64,000 bases of DNA, taken from Thermosynechococcus sp. HN-54. GTDB taxonomy: Bacteria > Cyanobacteriota > Cyanobacteriia > Thermosynechococcales > Thermosynechococcaceae. The notes beneath the pieces were generated by a model. It was not told the origin of the DNA, made no database searches, and saw only the letters and a program-made list of their open reading frames with translations. The translations under genes were made by a program, and so were the position numbers. The stretch is from positions 2,046,001 through 2,110,000 of the forward strand of contig NZ_CP098039.1 of NCBI RefSeq assembly GCF_023650955.1, given 5' to 3'. Below, in pieces: positions 7,385 through 62,042 of this stretch. Every line of letters starts with the position of its first letter. Within the stretch, counting starts at the first letter, position 1.

Positions 7385-8272
7385 TCACGCTTCTGGGGTT
7401 GGCGCGGTGTCTGCTGCATGATAGGAGCTACGCACCAGCGGCCCGGATTGCACGTGGGAAAAGCCGAGTTCGCGGGCAATGTGACCCAAGTTCTCAAATT
7501 CTTGGGGCGTCCAATACTTGACCACCGGCAAGTGATGCAAAGAGGGGGGCAGATATTGTCCCAAAGTCAGGCGATCGCACCCCACGGCTCGTAAATCTTT
7601 TAGGGTTTGAATCACCTCTGCCTCGGTTTCTCCCAAACCTAACATCAAGCCCGACTTGGTGGGAAGGTGGGGATTCAGTTCCTTCACAGTGGCCAATACG
7701 CGCAGTGAACTCTCATAGGTGGCGCCACGGCGCACCGGACCTTGTAGGCGGCGTACGGTTTCGAGGTTGTGGTTGTAGCAGGCAGGCTGTGCTGCCACAA
7801 TTTGGGCAATGCAGTCCCGTTGGCTCAAGCGTCCCCGATCCATGCGAAAGTCGGGGGTGAGGACTTCGATTTCCGTGTGGGGGCAGCGTTGGCGAATGGC
7901 GTGCATCGTAGCCACAAATTGACCTGCCCCCTGATCCGCCAAGTCATCGCGAGCCACAGAGGTTAAAACCACATAGCGCAATCCCAAGGTAGCCACAGCA
8001 GCCGCGATTTTTGCGGGTTCCTCTGGATCAACCGCAGCAGGAGCATGGCCTTTCTCCACTTGGCAAAAGGCACAGGCACGGGTACAGGTGGCGCCCAAGA
8101 GCAAAAAGGTGGCGGTTTTTTGGGCATAGCATTCACCGCGATTGGGACAGCGTCCCTCTTCGCAAATGGTGTGAATCCCATACTGGCGCACCAGTCGTTG
8201 CACGGTGGAGATCTCACTGGCTTTGCCAAGGGGTTTGCGCAGCCACGGCGGCAGGGGTTGGGAGACGGTCAT
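7385..8272 (-). CDS. lipA: Lipoyl synthase
   Basis: Radical-SAM enzyme that inserts two sulfur atoms into protein-bound octanoyl groups to make lipoyl cofactor for pyruvate dehydrogenase and glycine cleavage. The auxiliary 4Fe-4S cluster ligands are in [12 protein letters not shown] (about 35-46) and the SAM cluster motif CTRACAFC is at about 62-69. Further family marks are [27 protein letters not shown] and the C-terminal RSSYHA serine. The length of 295 is normal. The ATG is at 8272. It is monocistronic by appearance: a convergent neighbour ends 12 bp away and por starts divergently 172 bp upstream. No sign of damage. Confidence 0.96.
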
Positions 8273-54713: not shown

Positions 54714-54923
54714 ATGTCTACCAGCAGACCTGCTCGACCCACCCTTCAGTTTGTAGATGAGTATTGCGAACTGTACAGAGACTTGTTTTCAGACGTGCGC
54801 AGCTTTGAAGCCTTCACGTACCTGCATTTGGGCATGATTAGTGACATTAAACGCAAGTCCTTACCTGCCATTGCAAAAGCGGTGGGTTTAGAGAATCAAC
54901 CACCTAGCCAACACTCGTCTTAG
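54714..54923 (+). pseudogene. N-terminal fragment of an IS701/IS4-type transposase
   Basis: The 69 codons read TLQFVDEYCELYRDLFSDVR, then SFEAFTYLHLGMISDIKRKS and LPAIAKAVGLENQPPSQ, the usual N-terminus of IS701-family DDE transposases. A full protein would need about 350-400 more residues, but it stops after QHSS, at the end of cas5 on the opposite strand (20-bp overlap). The ribosome site (GAGGAACCT ATG) survives, so a short peptide might still be made. It marks the left edge of the CRISPR-Cas island and suggests that transposition brought in or cut the locus. Confidence 0.82.
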
Positions 54924-55533
54924 GAATGGTGACCCAACAATCTGATTGAAAGTCTGGACTGAGCCGAAAGCGCTGGAACATCCCTTTGGTTGTGTGGCGA
55001 TCGATCCAGATGGGCAGGCTAATCAGACCGCGATTGTCTTTAATGAGCCAGCGAATGGTGCCGTCAGTTTCACGATAGGGGCATACCCCATTAACCAGTG
55101 CCCACGACTCCCCTAGGCTGAGGCCACCAAAGCGGGCAATTTGCTGAGGTGTATTGAAGGCGATCGCCAGCCGATCAACTAGCTTCAGGGGGGCATTTTC
55201 CTCACTCGAATCAACCTTGACCACCAGTTGCACATCGGTGAGCAGTTCATGGTGATTCGGCTTGGAGAATTTACTCGTGGGATAGGTGCCGAGGCGATTC
55301 TTGCTGAACTTGTGATGCCGCTGTTTACGCAAAATGCGAGAAATGGGTGGGTCAGCACCGATGATGCCAATAGCTAGTTTGACCCCCCGATGTTGATCTA
55401 AATTCTCTTCACCGATCAGGGAAAGGAGCATGCCATAGATCGTGGAGGGGGGGGGATAGCGGTAGGTCTCCTTAAAGTCGCGGGCAAAGCTGCGGGGAAA
55501 ACTGGTACAGGGACAATCAATGTAAAGTTGCAT
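54904..55533 (-). CDS. cas5: Cas5 subunit of type I-B (MYXAN/DevS) Cascade
   Basis: Cascade subunit of 209 residues that caps the 5' handle of the crRNA. Family features are the N-terminal CTSFPRSFARDFKETYRYPP, the Cas5 helix STIYGMLLSLIGEENLDQHR, KLAIGIIGADPPISRILRKQ and the late GESWALVNGVCPYRETDG. Its ATG shares an A with the cas7 stop (TAATG), so the two are strictly coupled. It is the last gene of the cas8-cas7-cas5 unit. The subtype name is from overall layout and memory of Dev proteins, not from a search. Confidence 0.88.
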   Translation of the reverse strand: MQLYIDCPCTSFPRSFARDFKETYRYPPPSTIYGMLLSLIGEENLDQHRGVKLAIGIIGADPPISRILRKQRHHKFSKNRLGTYPTSKFSKPNHHELLTDVQLVVKVDSSEENAPLKLVDRLAIAFNTPQQIARFGGLSLGESWALVNGVCPYRETDGTIRWLIKDNRGLISLPIWIDRHTTKGMFQRFRLSPDFQSDCWVTIPKTSVG

Positions 55534-56405
55534 TAGGCGGGCACCTCAAGCTTGAGTTGTTGCGTTAATTGTGCTTTGGCGTGGGCGATCGCGTCCTTGA
55601 CCCCGCGATGAACCTGAACCCCTAACGCCTCTAACTGGTGACCATAGGGGGTATCGGCAATCTCACCGCCAACAATCAGCTCCTCGGCTTTCACATCTCC
55701 CACTTCAACCAGTCGCATTAGCCGCGGGCAGCCCACCGATTCCCCAATACGCTTAAACACGTCCATAATCCAAGGGCTGGGATCATCGGTTATCCGAATC
55801 ACAATGGACTCTGGACGAAAGTCGTACAAAAAGCGGGCATGATTGCCACCGACATGACGCACCGCACCAATGGCATCGAGGGCAAGGAGGGCACGCTCTG
55901 GTTTCTTCAAACTCTCTGGTGTGAGGGCGATCGTATATTGGTAGGCAGTGCAGTGCACCTCTGTACTGTGGATCGAGGTTTTCCCCTTTTCCCCCCCTTT
56001 CGAGCCAAAGGTAATATCCCCCCAATAGGGATCGAGACTCATGGCACGACTCACTTCTAGGGCACCTCGCCGTTTTGTAGTGGCATCCTCGTTATCTTTT
56101 CCTTTTTTGGCATCCATATAGCCAAATAGGTCATCATCAATGTATTTTTCAGCGCTGAATTGCTCATCCTTGAAGCTATACCTGTCAGTCTCAGGGTTAA
56201 ATGTGCGATTCACCTCTTTTTCGTAATGATTTTGAAAATACTCCCGCAATCCCCAACGGATCGCTTCTGCACTGACAGTTGTGTATTGATCGTTGCCACG
56301 GGTGATTTTTTGCAATGTTGAGAGAGTACTGCCATCCCCTTCCCCGCGGTTGTTGGCTGCGATAGCAGTGGTCGTTACAATCGTTGCAAAAAGATGCTTT
56401 GTCAT
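55533..56405 (-). CDS. cas7: Cas7 backbone subunit of type I-B (Cst2/DevR family)
   Basis: Forms the helical backbone that holds the crRNA spacer in Cascade. The 290 residues begin MTKHLFATIVTTTAIAANNR, then GNDQYTTVSAEAIRWGLREY; the RRGALEVSRAMSLDPYWGDI segment and AIGAVRHVGGNHARFLYDFR are typical of the DevR/Cst2 branch. Start is ATG 56405, with AGGAG 7 nt upstream; an open extension to 56513 overlaps the end of cas8 and is not used. Several copies per complex are expected. It begins 28 nt after the cas8 stop. Confidence 0.92.
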   Translation of the reverse strand: MTKHLFATIVTTTAIAANNRGEGDGSTLSTLQKITRGNDQYTTVSAEAIRWGLREYFQNHYEKEVNRTFNPETDRYSFKDEQFSAEKYIDDDLFGYMDAKKGKDNEDATTKRRGALEVSRAMSLDPYWGDITFGSKGGEKGKTSIHSTEVHCTAYQYTIALTPESLKKPERALLALDAIGAVRHVGGNHARFLYDFRPESIVIRITDDPSPWIMDVFKRIGESVGCPRLMRLVEVGDVKAEELIVGGEIADTPYGHQLEALGVQVHRGVKDAIAHAKAQLTQQLKLEVPA

Positions 56406-56433
56406 TTCATTACTCCTGAATGAGAGACAGAAA

Positions 56434-57951
56434 CTATTCATCGGCAAAGGAAAACATTTCCTCTTCGGTGGCATCCCCTTCATCCCTTGATTCCAAGGGG
56501 ACATCAACACCATTCAGAGCGTCTCCTTTCTTACTGCTGTAGGTGGCGATCGCCAGCAAGACCAAATCCCTTGCCCGTCGCCAGTTTTCCTCACGATGAA
56601 TCCAGTGAACAATTTGCGGGCCTTTATCGCGAGCGGCTTTGCTACGAAACTGGCTGAGGAAATCCACCAAGGCAGTGGCAAATTCCTGTTGCGTACTCGG
56701 ACGTTGGAATCGATAGATAACCTTATCGGTCACTTGTCTATAGTCTGGATCGCGACCTTGCTTCTTAGCTTGCTGAATCTGCCCGTACAGGTATTTACTA
56801 AAAGCACCTTGTACCACCTCAAAGAGCACCTGTTCATCGGTATTCAAGTATTCGGTCATTTTTACCAACCCTTGACGTTCATAGAGCTTATTACGTTTGT
56901 AAAACTCAAAGAAACCTGCATACCAAGGTTGACCTCCAATTAAATTGTCACAAATCCAAGGCAGTGCTTTAGAAACAGCTAACCAAGTTTCACCATTCTC
57001 CTTTTGTCGCACATGAGCAGGAAAAACTTGGCGTGCGACTTCATACAACTTGAGGACTTCATCGGTAACCTCTACACGGTACACTGCCTGTTTCAAATAA
57101 GCCTGCTGCGCATCCCAGACTTGCTTGCCTAACTGATAAACCTCACAGTAGTGCACACCAAACTGCTGCGCTTCTTCGACCACCTTTTCCTGCAACAGAA
57201 AATGCAACGCAGATTCACCGGCGCCACTGCTACGAAAGTCTCGATACGTGCACCCGGACATCGCGCGACGGCGCTTGACCCAGTGCTTTAGATTTTGAAC
57301 TTCAGGAATCACCAGTGCTGAGCGGGCAGAGAGTTTGCCACCAACGGTTTGGGGAGGAAGTTGGTAGTAGCCACAGGCAAGGGGTAAAAAGAGCAATGCC
57401 AGAAACCCTTGGGGCGACTCTTGATAAGGACCATTGACAAAGCATTCCACCAGTCCGGGCAGATGATTTCCCTTTAGGGGAATTTCTTTCTTGAAGGCTC
57501 CCTTACTGTTAAAGGCCTCCTTGATGTCGCTGGTGTAATAACAGCTCTCTAGGGGCTTCACCTCAATCTGGATCTCTGGTTGATCCGGCTCAATTAAGAA
57601 CGTGCGAGTGATAGAAGTGTTGCTGAGTTTGCGCTGTGTATTGTGCTGAAGGAATGTGGTGAGTACCCCCTGCGTAAAGGTATATTGCCCCTGTTCATCA
57701 AGCTTGAGGGCAGGAACCTCTAGATAGCCTTGGTGATTAATCTGATAGGTCTGCTTTAGCAGCCATGTTACGACCTTTTGATCGGTTTCCTCCCACTCCA
57801 ATTCAACCGCCTCATCGGTGACCTTCCAAGTTAAGGGAGCCTGCTCACGTTGGCTGTCCAACTCGGATAGGGCTAGGGCTAGCCCCGCAATCCCTGCTCG
57901 ATGGGGCAACAAAAAGTTTGGATCAAAGATTGACAGGGTAAATTGGCGCAT
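56434..57951 (-). CDS. cas8: Cas8 large subunit, MYXAN type (Cas8b3/Cmx1, DevT-like)
   Basis: Large subunit of Cascade, 505 residues from ATG 57951 (MRQFTLSIFDPNFLLPHRAG). It recognises the PAM and recruits Cas3. Cas8 proteins are very diverse; the assignment rests on size, position before cas7-cas5 and the N-terminal FDPNFLLPHRAGIAGLALAL with WEETDQKVVTWLLKQTY, which recall the MYXAN/Cmx1 branch. SGAGESALHFLLQEKVVEEA and the C-terminal helices (QQEFATALVDFLSQF) may include a small-subunit-like bundle. An in-frame extension to 58116 exists but has no conserved sequence. The gene is driven by the promoter at 58205-58234 through a 50-nt gap after the small ORF. Confidence 0.85.
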   Translation of the reverse strand: MRQFTLSIFDPNFLLPHRAGIAGLALALSELDSQREQAPLTWKVTDEAVELEWEETDQKVVTWLLKQTYQINHQGYLEVPALKLDEQGQYTFTQGVLTTFLQHNTQRKLSNTSITRTFLIEPDQPEIQIEVKPLESCYYTSDIKEAFNSKGAFKKEIPLKGNHLPGLVECFVNGPYQESPQGFLALLFLPLACGYYQLPPQTVGGKLSARSALVIPEVQNLKHWVKRRRAMSGCTYRDFRSSGAGESALHFLLQEKVVEEAQQFGVHYCEVYQLGKQVWDAQQAYLKQAVYRVEVTDEVLKLYEVARQVFPAHVRQKENGETWLAVSKALPWICDNLIGGQPWYAGFFEFYKRNKLYERQGLVKMTEYLNTDEQVLFEVVQGAFSKYLYGQIQQAKKQGRDPDYRQVTDKVIYRFQRPSTQQEFATALVDFLSQFRSKAARDKGPQIVHWIHREENWRRARDLVLLAIATYSSKKGDALNGVDVPLESRDEGDATEEEMFSFADE

Positions 57952-58177: not shown

Positions 58178-58204
58178 GTGGTTGCATTTAGATACTACAA
58201 TTCC

Positions 58205-58237
58205 AGTATAGCTTTCCTAGAGGTTAGCTGCAACCAT
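58205..58237 (-). promoter_or_regulatory. Promoter of the cas8-cas7-cas5 unit, overlapping a pseudo-protospacer
   Basis: On the - strand TTGCAG (58233-58228), 17 bp, then TATACT (58210-58205) form a good sigma-70 promoter. Bases 58234-58219, which include the -35 box, match the first 16 nt of the pseudo-spacer of the crRNA-like RNA at 14 positions. ATG (58237-58235) sits directly 5' of the matched stretch, where a type I PAM would be. Confidence 0.7.
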
Positions 58238-58260
58238 TTGAAGAGCTGCTCTTAAAATTA

Positions 58261-58398
58261 CCAGCCTATCCAGAATCTAGTCCTAGAAGGCTGGCAGAAA
58301 ACGCCTCAAGGCAATCGGTGGTTGTAGAAGACCGCCTAACCAGCAGTTCAGAGCTTAGCGGCAACGTGCCCAACGCATGAAGCATCTGTGGTAAGCAC
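58261..58398 (-). ncRNA. CreA/CreR-like crRNA-resembling RNA (degenerate repeat, pseudo-spacer, degenerate repeat)
   Basis: Degenerate repeat 1 (58398-58366) keeps the blocks GTGC, CAACGC, GCATC, GTGGTA and GCAC of the array repeat (read on the + strand) and the 8-nt handle as TTGGGCAC. A 32-nt pseudo-spacer (58365-58334) follows. Degenerate repeat 2 (58333-58294) keeps AACGCCT, GGCA, GTGGT and TAGA and can form the GCC/GGC stem. TATGAT at 58410-58405 would start the transcript at the first base of repeat 1. A 7-bp hairpin (58294-58288 with 58267-58261) followed by TAATTTT could end it. Cas6 would release a guide that points at the promoter 100 bp downstream. The design matches CreA/CreR RNAs known from other type I-B systems; transcription is not shown. 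Confidence 0.75.
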
Positions 58399-58424
58399 GT
58401 ATCCATCATACCGCTTTCTTTTCC

Positions 58425-60707
58425 TTAGATTCCATAAGCACCTAACTCTTGGCAATAGCCCCATTGATTGCTAGGGGCAATGAGATAACCGCTCTTATGG
58501 CGCTGCCAACCTTTGATGTTTTTGGTAGGGAGGGGAAGGGTGTATCGGGGCAACTCACTCGACTTAAGTGGGGCAATTTTTTCTAGGTCCTGTTCGAGGA
58601 GAGCAGTTACGGTATAGCCTGCTTTGCGTAGAGGAGCAGAGTACGTTTTCCATTGGCCATCTAGCCAGACACAGTGATCTTTGGGGGTGGGTTGGGTATT
58701 ACACTGTTCTAGCCAAGTGGCTAGTTGCGCTTGGGTAACCTCTTGACCGACAAAGTTTCGCACCAATGCCCATCCCGCCTCTAGCTCATCTGCACTGTAG
58801 GGAAAACCTGTCTTTTCGTCAGGGTAAAAGAGGGCATCAAGGGCGTGGCCGCAGTACTGACGATTGAGGCGCCCCAAGCGCTGGATTAGCCCTGCGGGGT
58901 CAGCAATCTGAGTTACTAGGAGTGTTGCCGACAAGTCCAGCGACATTTCTGCCACTTGCGTGGTGATGGCTAGGAGGGGTTGATCCTGTTTGAAGGCCTC
59001 TACCACTTCGCGGTGATGGTGCACGCGATCGCCATAACGAAAGCGACTGTGATACAACAAAGGTTGAAGTCCGCAGGTTTTGGCTTGCTGATAGGTCGCG
59101 ATCGCTGTATCCACCTGATTGCAAACCCACAGAACTCTACCGCCTTGGTCTAGTTCCTGCTTAACGCGATTCCAATCCGGCTGTGCAAGTTCATGGAAAC
59201 GATAGCGGCGCAAGGTTTCTAGCTCCTGAGGACCTTGGATAATAGCAATTTCCTCTCCCACTGCCTGCTGAATCGCCTGCACCTGCGCCGGTAAAAATGA
59301 GGCGGACATCAGCAAAATTGGCGCTTTAACAACCTTCAGAAACCGCAGCAGCGCCCCAAACAACGCTTCGTCATAGCAGTGAACTTCATCAAAGACGAAA
59401 GCAGCATTGGCAAGAGCTGGAAAGCAATATAGGGGACGTCGATGACATTGCAGGAGTCCCAAAACGGTATCCACAGTGCAAACATTGACCTTGGCCCCCC
59501 ACGCCTTGAAGGCTTCTAATTTCTGAGCGGTCTCATTAACGGCTCCATCACCATTGTCTTCCTCCTCCCCTGTGCAAGCTAACTCTAAATCAATATCCGA
59601 GCGAGAGTGCAACAGCTCTGACTCTACTTGGTTGTGAACATAGCCCAGAAAGCCCTCAGTGCTAGTGCCTGTTGTTGGATAACAAAAGAACAACTTCCGT
59701 CCAATGCCATGGCATTGTGCCCAGCAGTAGGCACCAAGGGTTTTACCCGTACCGCAACCGGCACGTGCTAGGGTTACTCGCTTGGACTTATCCTTCAGTT
59801 CAATTTGAAATGGATGCAGTGGCTGCTGACCCCGCCGTGCATCAATCACTTTTTGCAGATCAGCCTTAACCAAGGTCTGTTCTTTTAGTGCTTTTTGGAT
59901 CCACTGCTGGAGGTTGGTTGCAACCTGTGCTGACGCCGAGCCAATGGCATCTGCTGCCACAAGCAGTGCTTTCACAACAGCAACAAACACAGTGTCTGGC
60001 TTCCACTCAATAAAAGCGTTTAAGACCGCTTCACGTTTCTCCTTAATCGTTTTAATCTCCCATTCTGGCGAGAATGGGAAGGCAGGAATTGTCCGAGGTA
60101 GTCCTAGGGTTCTCACCCCATAGCGAATTAGCTTGTGGAAGTAACGATGATGGACATACCAGTACAGGTAAGGATCTCCACTGCCCTCGCGGATGTCCCC
60201 CAGTTCACTGGTGTCACGCCCCTGCTTACCGCCTAATTTGAGGTGATGTCCTCCTGCTGCGGCGATCGCAGTCATCAAGTCAGCATTGGGGCATTGGCCA
60301 AGCCAGTCTCGGAACTCCCACGCCAGCAAGACAGACCCCACTTCATGACGAATCAGTTGTGGATATTGCAAGGGGTTACGTTGAGGCTGCACAGATCGCT
60401 TTGAACCCCTGAGGGGGTACCTTACCACACCTTGAAATTGGTGATTGGCCTTACCCCAATCATGCAAATAAGCAGCCAGTTGGGCAGTCGCCCGCAGAGT
60501 TTTTTGTTTTTGGATGTCATCCCCCAATCCGAACTGACGGAGGAGAGTTGTTCCCAGTGTCTCTACTAAAGTTGTAATTGATTGTACAACCGCAGCTGTA
60601 TGACCAACCAAATGATCAGTTCCTCTCCAGTTAGCGCTGCTTGGGAGGGAAGATTTTGCCAAAAGAATATCGGGTTCTAGTTTTGGTCGAGAACAACTAG
60701 GCGGCAT
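58425..60707 (-). CDS. cas3: Cas3 nuclease-helicase
   Basis: Effector that unwinds and degrades DNA bound by Cascade. The 760 residues start at ATG 60707 (MPPSCSRPKLEP), overlapping the end of cas6 by 11 bp. The HD nuclease part (about 30-260) has HTAAVVQSITTL, the metal His-Asp in LAAYLHDWGKANHQF, RHEVGSVLLAWEF and AAGGHHLKLGG. The helicase part has Walker A ARAGCGTGKTLGAY, AFVFDEVHCYDEAL (DEVH box), LLMSASFLP, ITTQVAEMSLDLSAT and LIQRLGRLNRQY. Nuclease and helicase motifs all look intact. The frame is also open to 60770, but that part lies over cas6. The crRNA-like RNA starts 26 nt after its stop. Confidence 0.94.
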   Translation of the reverse strand: MPPSCSRPKLEPDILLAKSSLPSSANWRGTDHLVGHTAAVVQSITTLVETLGTTLLRQFGLGDDIQKQKTLRATAQLAAYLHDWGKANHQFQGVVRYPLRGSKRSVQPQRNPLQYPQLIRHEVGSVLLAWEFRDWLGQCPNADLMTAIAAAGGHHLKLGGKQGRDTSELGDIREGSGDPYLYWYVHHRYFHKLIRYGVRTLGLPRTIPAFPFSPEWEIKTIKEKREAVLNAFIEWKPDTVFVAVVKALLVAADAIGSASAQVATNLQQWIQKALKEQTLVKADLQKVIDARRGQQPLHPFQIELKDKSKRVTLARAGCGTGKTLGAYCWAQCHGIGRKLFFCYPTTGTSTEGFLGYVHNQVESELLHSRSDIDLELACTGEEEDNGDGAVNETAQKLEAFKAWGAKVNVCTVDTVLGLLQCHRRPLYCFPALANAAFVFDEVHCYDEALFGALLRFLKVVKAPILLMSASFLPAQVQAIQQAVGEEIAIIQGPQELETLRRYRFHELAQPDWNRVKQELDQGGRVLWVCNQVDTAIATYQQAKTCGLQPLLYHSRFRYGDRVHHHREVVEAFKQDQPLLAITTQVAEMSLDLSATLLVTQIADPAGLIQRLGRLNRQYCGHALDALFYPDEKTGFPYSADELEAGWALVRNFVGQEVTQAQLATWLEQCNTQPTPKDHCVWLDGQWKTYSAPLRKAGYTVTALLEQDLEKIAPLKSSELPRYTLPLPTKNIKGWQRHKSGYLIAPSNQWGYCQELGAYGI

Positions 60708-61365
60708 CCAGTTCCTCCTTGACTGGGTAAAACCAGCCGCAGCCAAAATGTTGTCGTCCTCCCAATCCATGCCATTGTAGCTTCAGCGAGTCCTCGGCAT
60801 TGAGGTTCTCAACAACCACGCTGTAGCCTACGACTTTTTTGCCCTTCACTTGAATCGTGCGCCGTGCTAAATTACCATCGGGATCAGACGGAATAAAGGC
60901 TCTTCCCTGAATCCCCAGATAGGTGAGGCTTTTTTGGCAAGACTCTAGGAAATAGCGAGGAACGTCTTGGTGATCAATTGCCTCTAGTTTGAAGGTGACC
61001 AACCGAGCAGCGAGGGTTCGTGACGGTTCTGGCAATGTAATGCGCGGCTGCACAAGGCGAATAAGATGCCCCTGAATATCCAACACTTGGTTCTGAAAAA
61101 AGCGGTACCACGTCCGCACTTGATTGATAGGACAGCGAAGGCGAAAGCGCGAAGCACGATTTAGATAAATCATTCCCTCGCCGTTGGGAACTCCAGCAAT
61201 ACTGCTAAGGTGAAGGTCACTCGGTATATCCGAAGGTAGATCTGACCCTCCTGATTGTTGCAACTGTTTTTTAATGGCAGAGTACAATGCATAGCCATGA
61301 TCTGCTGGCAGCGTTCTTCCACGCAAGCTGTAATGAATTTCAAGAAAGTGACACTGATCGGCCAT
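60697..61365 (-). CDS. cas6: Cas6 pre-crRNA endonuclease (Cmx6 type)
   Basis: Cuts the repeat RNA at the base of its hairpin to release crRNAs. The 222 residues have the N-terminal HFLEIHYSLRGRTLPADHGY with a candidate general-base His in PADHGYALYSAI. The ferredoxin-like folds are in RFRLRCPINQVRTWYRFFQN, and the diagnostic glycine-rich C-terminal loop is GLGGRQHFGCGWFYPV. This short form with PADHGY is what I recall for the Cmx6 (MYXAN) branch. The ATG is at 61365. It is downstream of the array on the same strand, with a 283-bp AT-rich gap that must hold its promoter. Its end overlaps cas3. Confidence 0.92.
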   Translation of the reverse strand: MADQCHFLEIHYSLRGRTLPADHGYALYSAIKKQLQQSGGSDLPSDIPSDLHLSSIAGVPNGEGMIYLNRASRFRLRCPINQVRTWYRFFQNQVLDIQGHLIRLVQPRITLPEPSRTLAARLVTFKLEAIDHQDVPRYFLESCQKSLTYLGIQGRAFIPSDPDGNLARRTIQVKGKKVVGYSVVVENLNAEDSLKLQWHGLGGRQHFGCGWFYPVKEELDAA

Positions 61366-61648
61366 TGTCGAATTCCGAAGAACTTTACTTTATTGACTAA
61401 ACTTGAGCTTCCTCATTACTTACAGTTGCTCGCCAAGGGCAATTCTTATGTAGCAGGTCGTTCATTTTTTAAGATTCATCTGGTTTCAATAGTTATCATA
61501 CCCAACCCATTACAGTCATAATTTAAAAATAATATTAGTCTATTTCTAGAGCCTATGTTAAGCAACCAAGGTAGCAAAAAAACTTTCTTGGTTAAAATTC
61601 TTATTAATTCTTAAAAAAAGACAATTTTAAGGATTTTAAGGATTCAAT
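61366..61648 (-). promoter_or_regulatory. AT-rich gap between the array and cas6 (array trailer and cas6 promoter region)
   Basis: No gene seen. AACCAAG and CTTGGTT (61564-61570 and 61587-61593) form a 7-bp stem with an A/T-rich loop, perhaps an array terminator on either strand. TATGAT (- strand, near 61494) is a candidate -10 box for cas6, but its -35 is weak. No degenerate repeat or pseudo-protospacer like those before cas8 was found here. Confidence 0.35.
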
Positions 61649-62042
61649 GTGCTCAACGCCTTACGGCATCAGTGGTAGAGGCACAAACTGGCAAGGCGAA
61701 GGTAGTTTTTCCGCAGGAGACGTGCTCAACGCCTTACGGCATCAGTGGTAGAGGCACTTCTCCACAAAACTTGGCAGCGAACCTGGTAGTTTGTGCTCAA
61801 CGCCTTACGGCATCAGTGGTAGAGGCACGAAACTTACTAAAATCGAGACTACCGCGACAAATGTGCTCAACGCCTTACGGCATCAGTGGTAGAGGCACGG
61901 GGTGACTTCGATTCTGGCCGTCCCAAAATTCTGCTTGTGCTCAACGCCTTACGGCATCAGTGGTAGAGGCACGTTAAGGAGTGGCGACAGGAACTGCGTG
62001 CTCACCGTGCTCAACGCCTTACGGCATCAGTGGTAGAGGCAC
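61649..62042 (-). CRISPR. CRISPR array, six identical 36-nt repeats and five spacers
   Basis: Repeats start at 61649, 61722, 61793, 61863, 61937 and 62007. On the + strand each begins GTGCTCAACGCC, continues TTACGGCATCAGTGG and ends TAGAGGCAC; the ends GTGC and GCAC are inverted. Spacers are 37, 35, 34, 38 and 34 nt. On the - strand the repeat folds as TGCC-GTAA-GGCG, a GNRA tetraloop, with exactly eight bases (TTGAGCAC) left 3' of the stem, the standard Cas6 product handle. The + strand has only a weaker stem with a C-A mismatch. The array is therefore read leftward like the cas genes, with its leader on the right. All six repeats are identical, with no worn terminal repeat. Confidence 0.97.

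Follow-up and report, generated by a model that had tools for sequence, protein, structure and literature searches.

A CreR-type candidate autorepressor between cas3 and cas8 of a cyanobacterial type I-B (MYXAN) locus

The window analyzed here, a stretch of 64,000 nucleotides from Thermosynechococcus sp. HN-54, contains a mini-CRISPR unit with a guide, formed by two degenerate repeats (psiR1 and psiR2) around a pseudo-spacer (psiS), inside a cas locus. A preliminary description had proposed that Cascade uses this unit to repress its own effector operon. The genes are ordered cas4/cas1, cas2, array, cas6, cas3, insert, cas8, cas7 and cas5, all on the minus strand (Table 1). The presence of a Cmx1-type Cas8, Cas7/DevR, Cas5/Cmx5, Cas6/Cmx6 and a MYXAN Cas1 assigns the locus to type I-B (MYXAN); these five scored over their curated cut-offs except for Cas5 (106.9 bits, slightly below its cut-off of 111.5). 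All Cas proteins of the locus matched MYXAN-type or general Cas families.

Table 1. Features of the cas locus and inserted unit in the HN-54 window, with positions of second-family small ORFs in other loci.
Feature	Coordinates	Strand	Remarks
cas5 (Cmx5/DevS)	54904..55533	-	TIGR02586, E 9.1e-31
cas7 (Cst2/DevR)	55533..56513	-	TIGR02585, E 5.2e-34
cas8 (Cas8a1/Cmx1, type I-MYXAN)	56434..57951	-	TIGR03485, E 1.7e-46
Small ORF, 58 aa	58001..58177	-	First gene of the proposed repressed unit; an in-frame TAA makes it shorter than its family members (75-91 aa)
Protospacer	58203..58234	-	Matching part 58234-58219, GTTGCAGCTAACCTCT; over the -35, running to the -10
Predicted promoter, -10 TATACT	58210-58205	-	5/6 consensus; spacing 17
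Predicted promoter, -35 TTGCAG	58233-58228	-	3/6 consensus
PAM ATG	58235..58237	-	Directly precedes the protospacer
Hairpin CCAGCCTTCTAGG...GGATAGGCTGG then TAATTTT	58254..58294	-	Probable terminator of the guide transcript
psiR2, degenerate repeat	58294..58329	-	Cas6-type hairpin GCC-TTGA-GGC retained; assigned by position and homologues
psiS, pseudo-spacer, 36 nt	58330..58365	-	GTTGCCGCTAAGCTCTGAACTGCTGGTTAGGCGGTC; begins GTTGCCGCTAAGCTCT; first 16 nt differ from the target at 6 and 12 only
psiR1, degenerate repeat	58366..58398	-	GTGCTTACCACAGATGCTTCATGCGTTGGGCAC; gives crRNA-like 5' handle TTGGGCAC (array handle TTGAGCAC)
Putative -10 TATGAT of guide gene	58405..58410	-	Transcription start would be near 58398, where psiR1 begins
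cas3	58425..60770	-	TIGR01587, E 6.6e-44; directly upstream of the module
cas6 (Cmx6)	60697..61365	-	TIGR02807, E 2.9e-52; presumed processing nuclease
CRISPR array	61648..62042	-	6 repeats GTGCCTCTACCACTGATGCCGTAAGGCGTTGAGCAC; 36-nt repeat, spacers 34-38 nt
Second-family small ORF, L017	5880-6113
Second-family small ORF, L083	9388-9618	-
Second-family small ORF, L086	9377-9580
Second-family small ORF, L075	G037:C2:16513-16743

Checking of coordinates and sequence showed psiR1 and the start of the pseudo-spacer to be as originally described. psiR1 scored 17.9, a level that 1000 gap shuffles did not approach more closely than 14.6, and its 33 nt are identical to those of psiR1 in locus L011 from another genus. 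Taken alone psiR2 is weak (score of 8.9, reached by 3.8% of shuffles); hairpins resembling psiR2 follow psiS in nearly all homologues. The second repeat copy is present as claimed, but the repeat register moves its bounds from 58294-58333 to 58329-58294, and register with the 36-nt array repeat likewise gives a pseudo-spacer of 36 nt rather than the 32 nt first proposed. The unit has the composition of a crRNA-like gene with degenerate repeats adjoining cas genes. A TATGAT motif stands at an equal distance before psiR1 in the window and in L011, L017, L069, L083, L086 and L096; no -35 was seen with it and, since it overlaps an ATG that may alternatively be read as a start codon, it can be assigned only putatively as the -10 of the guide gene. 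Terminator-like hairpins occupy the corresponding place in L025, L069 and L096, and a terminator consensus scan of the window did not list the hairpin at 58254..58294. By inspection, psiR1 folds only into a short and imperfect version of the repeat hairpin, so that efficient cutting by Cas6 is assumed here.

The target of psiS lies 131 nt downstream, in a predicted promoter region preceding the small ORF and cas8-cas7-cas5. Over the first 16 nt all non-flipped positions match (14/14), and the preliminary claim of 14 agreements in 16 on the minus strand at 58234-58219, with differences at 6 and 12 and an ATG directly 5', was accurate in each respect. When the 476-nt gap was shuffled 5000 times, psiS gave no ATG-PAM match better than 11/14, and the PAM plus core (ATGGTTGCNGCTAA) has a single occurrence in the 2.7-Mb genome, which is the proposed target. 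ATG is likewise the PAM reported for an I-B2 CAST (PMC12719977); a comparison of one array with phage records gave no match, and so yielded no PAM from array protospacers. To call the promoter well-formed, as was done previously, is an overstatement: its -10 is good and its spacing 17 nt, its -35 is weak, and a promoter consensus scan of the window did not list it. Predicted from sequence, it is made credible by a nearly equal geometry in L069, L096 and L060; a consensus -35 was found beside or in the site in L057 and L048. Target surroundings were also more promoter-like than random places in the same loci (mean 7.6 vs 6.1 of 12, p 4e-6).

The analysis was extended to a draw of 390 cyanobacterial genomes, 81 of which gave a Cmx6-type cas6 match. 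The surroundings of cas6 were fetched and scanned for a pseudo-repeat and then for a 16-17-nt match to a nearby site, with one scan allowing every possible PAM. Including the window (W), a psiS/target pair was found in 25 loci (W, L017, L020, L025, L033, L037, L041-L046, L048, L051, L055, L056, L057, L060, L069, L075, L083, L086, L090, L095 and L096), giving 24 further elements in cyanobacterial type I-B (MYXAN). The pseudo-spacers are mostly unlike one another, apart from a few close pairs, and each fits its own downstream site, located 93-186 nt after the psiS start and preceded by ATG (24/25) or TTG (1/25). The co-variation of psiS and promoter proposed earlier as a check was therefore borne out in homologues. 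Own psiS/target pairs mostly agreed at 13-14 of 14 positions, against at most 11 of 14 when swapped between loci, that value being reached among related loci. As a control, about 1000 ordinary repeat-spacer units were put through the identical scan and gave only chance matches, array repeats or duplicated spacers. Since some elements are related to one another, the 25 loci do not represent 25 independent events.

When the matches were pooled, agreement was near-complete at positions 1-5 and 7-11 (20-25 of 25 each) and amounted to 22, 22, 21, 18 and 17 of 25 at positions 13-17 (100/125, ~80%), with values at random level for positions 6, 12 and 18 (20/75) and 21% for positions 19-30. Positions 13-17 were little used in picking most elements; five (L020, L045, L056, L060 and L075) were ranked over 17 positions, which makes the p-value calculated for the 25 elements optimistic, and the 20-element set without them gave a like profile. 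Matches that skip 6, 12 and 18 and end at about 17 across loci indicate selection on pairing. The pooled profile can be read as an evolutionary footprint of Cascade pairing, with 6, 12 and 18 free and conservation to 17, and as a natural estimate of the pairing kept for repression. In CreA, positions 1-5 and 7-11 pair and are needed and positions 6 and 12 are dispensable (PMC8501985). An extra mismatch at position 9 was seen in L044, L051, L055, L090 and L095, which in L051 and L090 would be a G-T wobble, and L083 (oriented 7732-7767) shows two tandem ATG-PAM targets, 16 nt apart, for one pseudo-spacer.

The modules have two placements, upstream of cas6 or, as in the window, between cas3 and cas8. 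In the former the target lies directly before cas6 (L042, L045, L051, L055, L056, L057 and L090) or before a small ORF followed by cas6 (e.g. L033, L043, L046 and L048), and in intact cas3-cas8 modules it precedes orf-cas8. The cas3-cas8 gap is bimodal, measuring either 4-66 nt without a pseudo-repeat or >350 nt with psiR1, the end of which lies 59-68 nt past the cas3 match in W, L011, L017, L069, L075, L083, L086, L095 and L096. The module of L025 is located farther downstream of cas3, and longer gaps without a pseudo-repeat occur in L051 (171 nt) and L048 (517 nt, with an incomplete cas3 match). In relatives the operon runs without a break through the place where the module sits here, which is a new observation, as is the finding that in the cas3-cas8 class the target promoter is followed first by a small protein gene, truncated in this genome. 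In a quick Cas3 tree (SH-aLRT support only) the cas3-cas8 modules were scattered over about 8 branches among module-free sisters. Four congeners (G020, G021, G022 and G026) carry a related system with a cas3-cas8 gap of 16-30 nt and no module, showing that the module is dispensable, and the L011 copy is decayed, with psiR2 and the target lost.

The preliminary description had taken cas8 as the first gene after the promoter and overlooked the 58-aa ORF at 58177-58001, which is read before it. Homologous sequence continues past the in-frame TAA of this ORF, and full relatives (75-91 aa) are present at the corresponding module position in L025, L069, L095 and L096, with a decayed one in L011; a distance of 1-2 nt separates the ORF end from cas8 in L069 and L096. 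A profile of this first family gave strong matches (E <1e-17) exclusively within such modules; weaker matches fell next to cas6 in G033, within the G200 cas region and in G241. A second, unrelated family of small helical proteins occupies the corresponding position in L017, L083, L086 and L075. Pfam searches with the small ORFs gave sub-threshold matches only, among them HTH_17 (E 3e-4) for the L025 protein, and no toxin family. AlphaFold modelled the first family as a helix plus a beta-helix-helix-beta-beta-beta arrangement (pLDDT 76) and the second as two helices. First-family proteins may perhaps bind DNA; since the model had no significant match in the PDB, the "HTH" label is tentative.

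On this evidence the element is likely to be a CreR-type, Cascade-dependent autorepressor of its own effector genes, and the occurrence of some 25 loci, each with its own rewritten psiS/target version, makes it very probably a built-in brake on the CRISPR system. A short RNA would be transcribed from about 58398 to 58254 and cut by Cas6 in both degenerate repeats, and the product, with a processed 5' end reading TTGGGCAC-GTTGCCGCTAAG, would be loaded into Cascade like a crRNA. psiS would then pair with the first 16-17 bases of the PAM-flanked site over the -35/-10 region, skipping 6 and 12 and stopping at about 17, which is presumably too short for attack by Cas3, so that bound Cascade would only block RNA polymerase. 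Cascade would in this way limit the promoter of the small ORF and cas8-cas7-cas5, and repression would ease if Cascade became scarce, was titrated by array crRNAs or was inhibited. Transcripts reading through from cas3 may supply cas8 as well. The self-repression first suggested is thus supported by the co-variation, with the amendments that the small ORF is the first gene affected and that the mechanism is already known as CreR.

CreR RNAs (Liu et al. 2023, doi 10.1016/j.chom.2023.08.005) are described in citing reports as cas-regulating RNAs of I-B, I-E and V-A systems, where such guides repress cas genes (PMC12737573, PMC13131331). As portrayed there, they share with the window element a crRNA-like RNA encoded by the cas genes, partial complementarity to a cas promoter and a predicted role in guiding the effector to repress its own genes. 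The present elements differ from that portrayal in being cyanobacterial and MYXAN, with an ATG PAM and three matching segments that extend to about 17 nt, and the window module in lying inside the operon, between cas3 and cas8, with a promoter that reads a small ORF first. In haloarchaeal I-B CreTA (PMC8501985, PMC9458426), psiS is likewise enclosed by two degenerate repeats, the promoter target has a flanking PAM, bases 6 and 12 are flipped, and the guide gene is located in or before the cas operon; CreA, however, has TTC as its PAM, pairs at 1-5 and 7-11, and keeps an RNA toxin repressed, whereas the present elements also match at 13-17, use ATG and are followed by cas genes. The kept partial pairing, together with the CreA and CreR precedents, leads us to file the window element as a probable member of CreR. 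No description of CreR in cyanobacteria was found in the open literature, where the primary CreR paper was met only as a citation; the kind of element is known. What is new, as far as the open literature shows, is that it occurs in cyanobacterial MYXAN systems, that its pairing footprint extends to base 17 and that families of small proteins are attached to it.

Because the small ORF comes first behind the promoter, a toxin or addiction role for it is possible, in which, as in CreTA or CrePA, the promoter would serve a small toxin gene that Cascade silences, so that a cell would pay for losing Cascade or having it inhibited, and repression of cas genes might be a side effect. The two unrelated small-protein families are almost confined to these modules, CreTA modules are located within cas operons or ahead of them, and the toxin that CrePA combines with CreA is a protein (PMC8501985, PMC12737573); CrePA has a small protein gene directly behind the Cascade-repressed promoter, as predicted here. 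Such a role is nevertheless unlikely. In the window a protein-like ORF and then cas8 follow the promoter, but the ORF is truncated by a stop; in L069 and L096 it abuts cas8, unlike a separate toxin gene; and, in contrast to CrePA, the small proteins match no toxin family and, judged by sequence, give no sign of toxicity. In at least seven elements no clear ORF lies between the target and cas6, which leaves repression of cas genes as the common denominator.

That the unit is a relic of an old array or of a self-spacer, now without function in HN-54, would fit the degenerate repeats, the decay of the related L011 copy and the congeners that manage without a module. The window copy, however, retains its PAM, a putative terminator and agreement at each of the 14 non-flipped positions, and a self-acquired spacer would match over its full length instead of ending near 17 and skipping 6, 12 and 18, making this very improbable. 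A chance resemblance might be argued from the short match (16 nt) and the weak psiR2 and -35, but given the shuffles, the uniqueness in the genome and the like pattern in 24 further loci its probability is negligible. Both the relic and the chance readings were rejected on the co-variation of psiS and target across loci.

Autorepression by a CreR-type element, for which 25 loci provide comparative evidence, would add cyanobacterial MYXAN I-B systems to those whose cas genes are under RNA-guided control; it makes the feedback loop testable in tractable phototrophs and brings to light two small-protein families tied to it. It also offers a concrete hypothesis for the Myxococcus xanthus dev operon, which has a small gene, devI, with DevTRS corresponding to Cas8-Cas7-Cas5 (PMC8616872, PMC8730458). 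That operon is repressed by its own Cas8-7-5, in a manner reported as unknown (PMC8616872). Cas7 and Cas5 of the window match the DevR and DevS families, and a small gene with a cas8-7-5 operon is common to both; the reported dispensability of Cas6 in M. xanthus is a difference that counts against a simple transfer of the guide mechanism. A more speculative and rather doubtful proposal sees these elements as a cyanobacterial lineage of CreR. Pairing in three segments (~17 nt) would there repress a promoter inside the cas operon that drives a dedicated small protein as well, from either of two families, one of which may bind DNA, and the same logic might lie behind dev autoregulation. If true, the Cascade level would govern not only the cas genes but also how much of a second regulator or anti-phage effector is made.

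Some further features were observed in the two module classes. Of nine intact cas3-cas8 modules, the seven other than L025 and L069 have a psiR1 handle that reads TTGGGCA(C/A) rather than TTGAGCAC; in the cas6-upstream class the handle stays TTGAGCA(C/T). In seven cas6-upstream loci (L033, L037, L042, L044, L055, L057 and L090) psiS is seemingly about 60-75 nt long, against 36 nt, with psiR2 displaced, so that the guides would exceed normal crRNA length; an apparent internal hairpin was present in the long psiS of at least L042. A lone pseudo-repeat outside any array, GATTGCCGCAAGGCGTTGAACAT, was found after cas5 in L010 (9848-9888).
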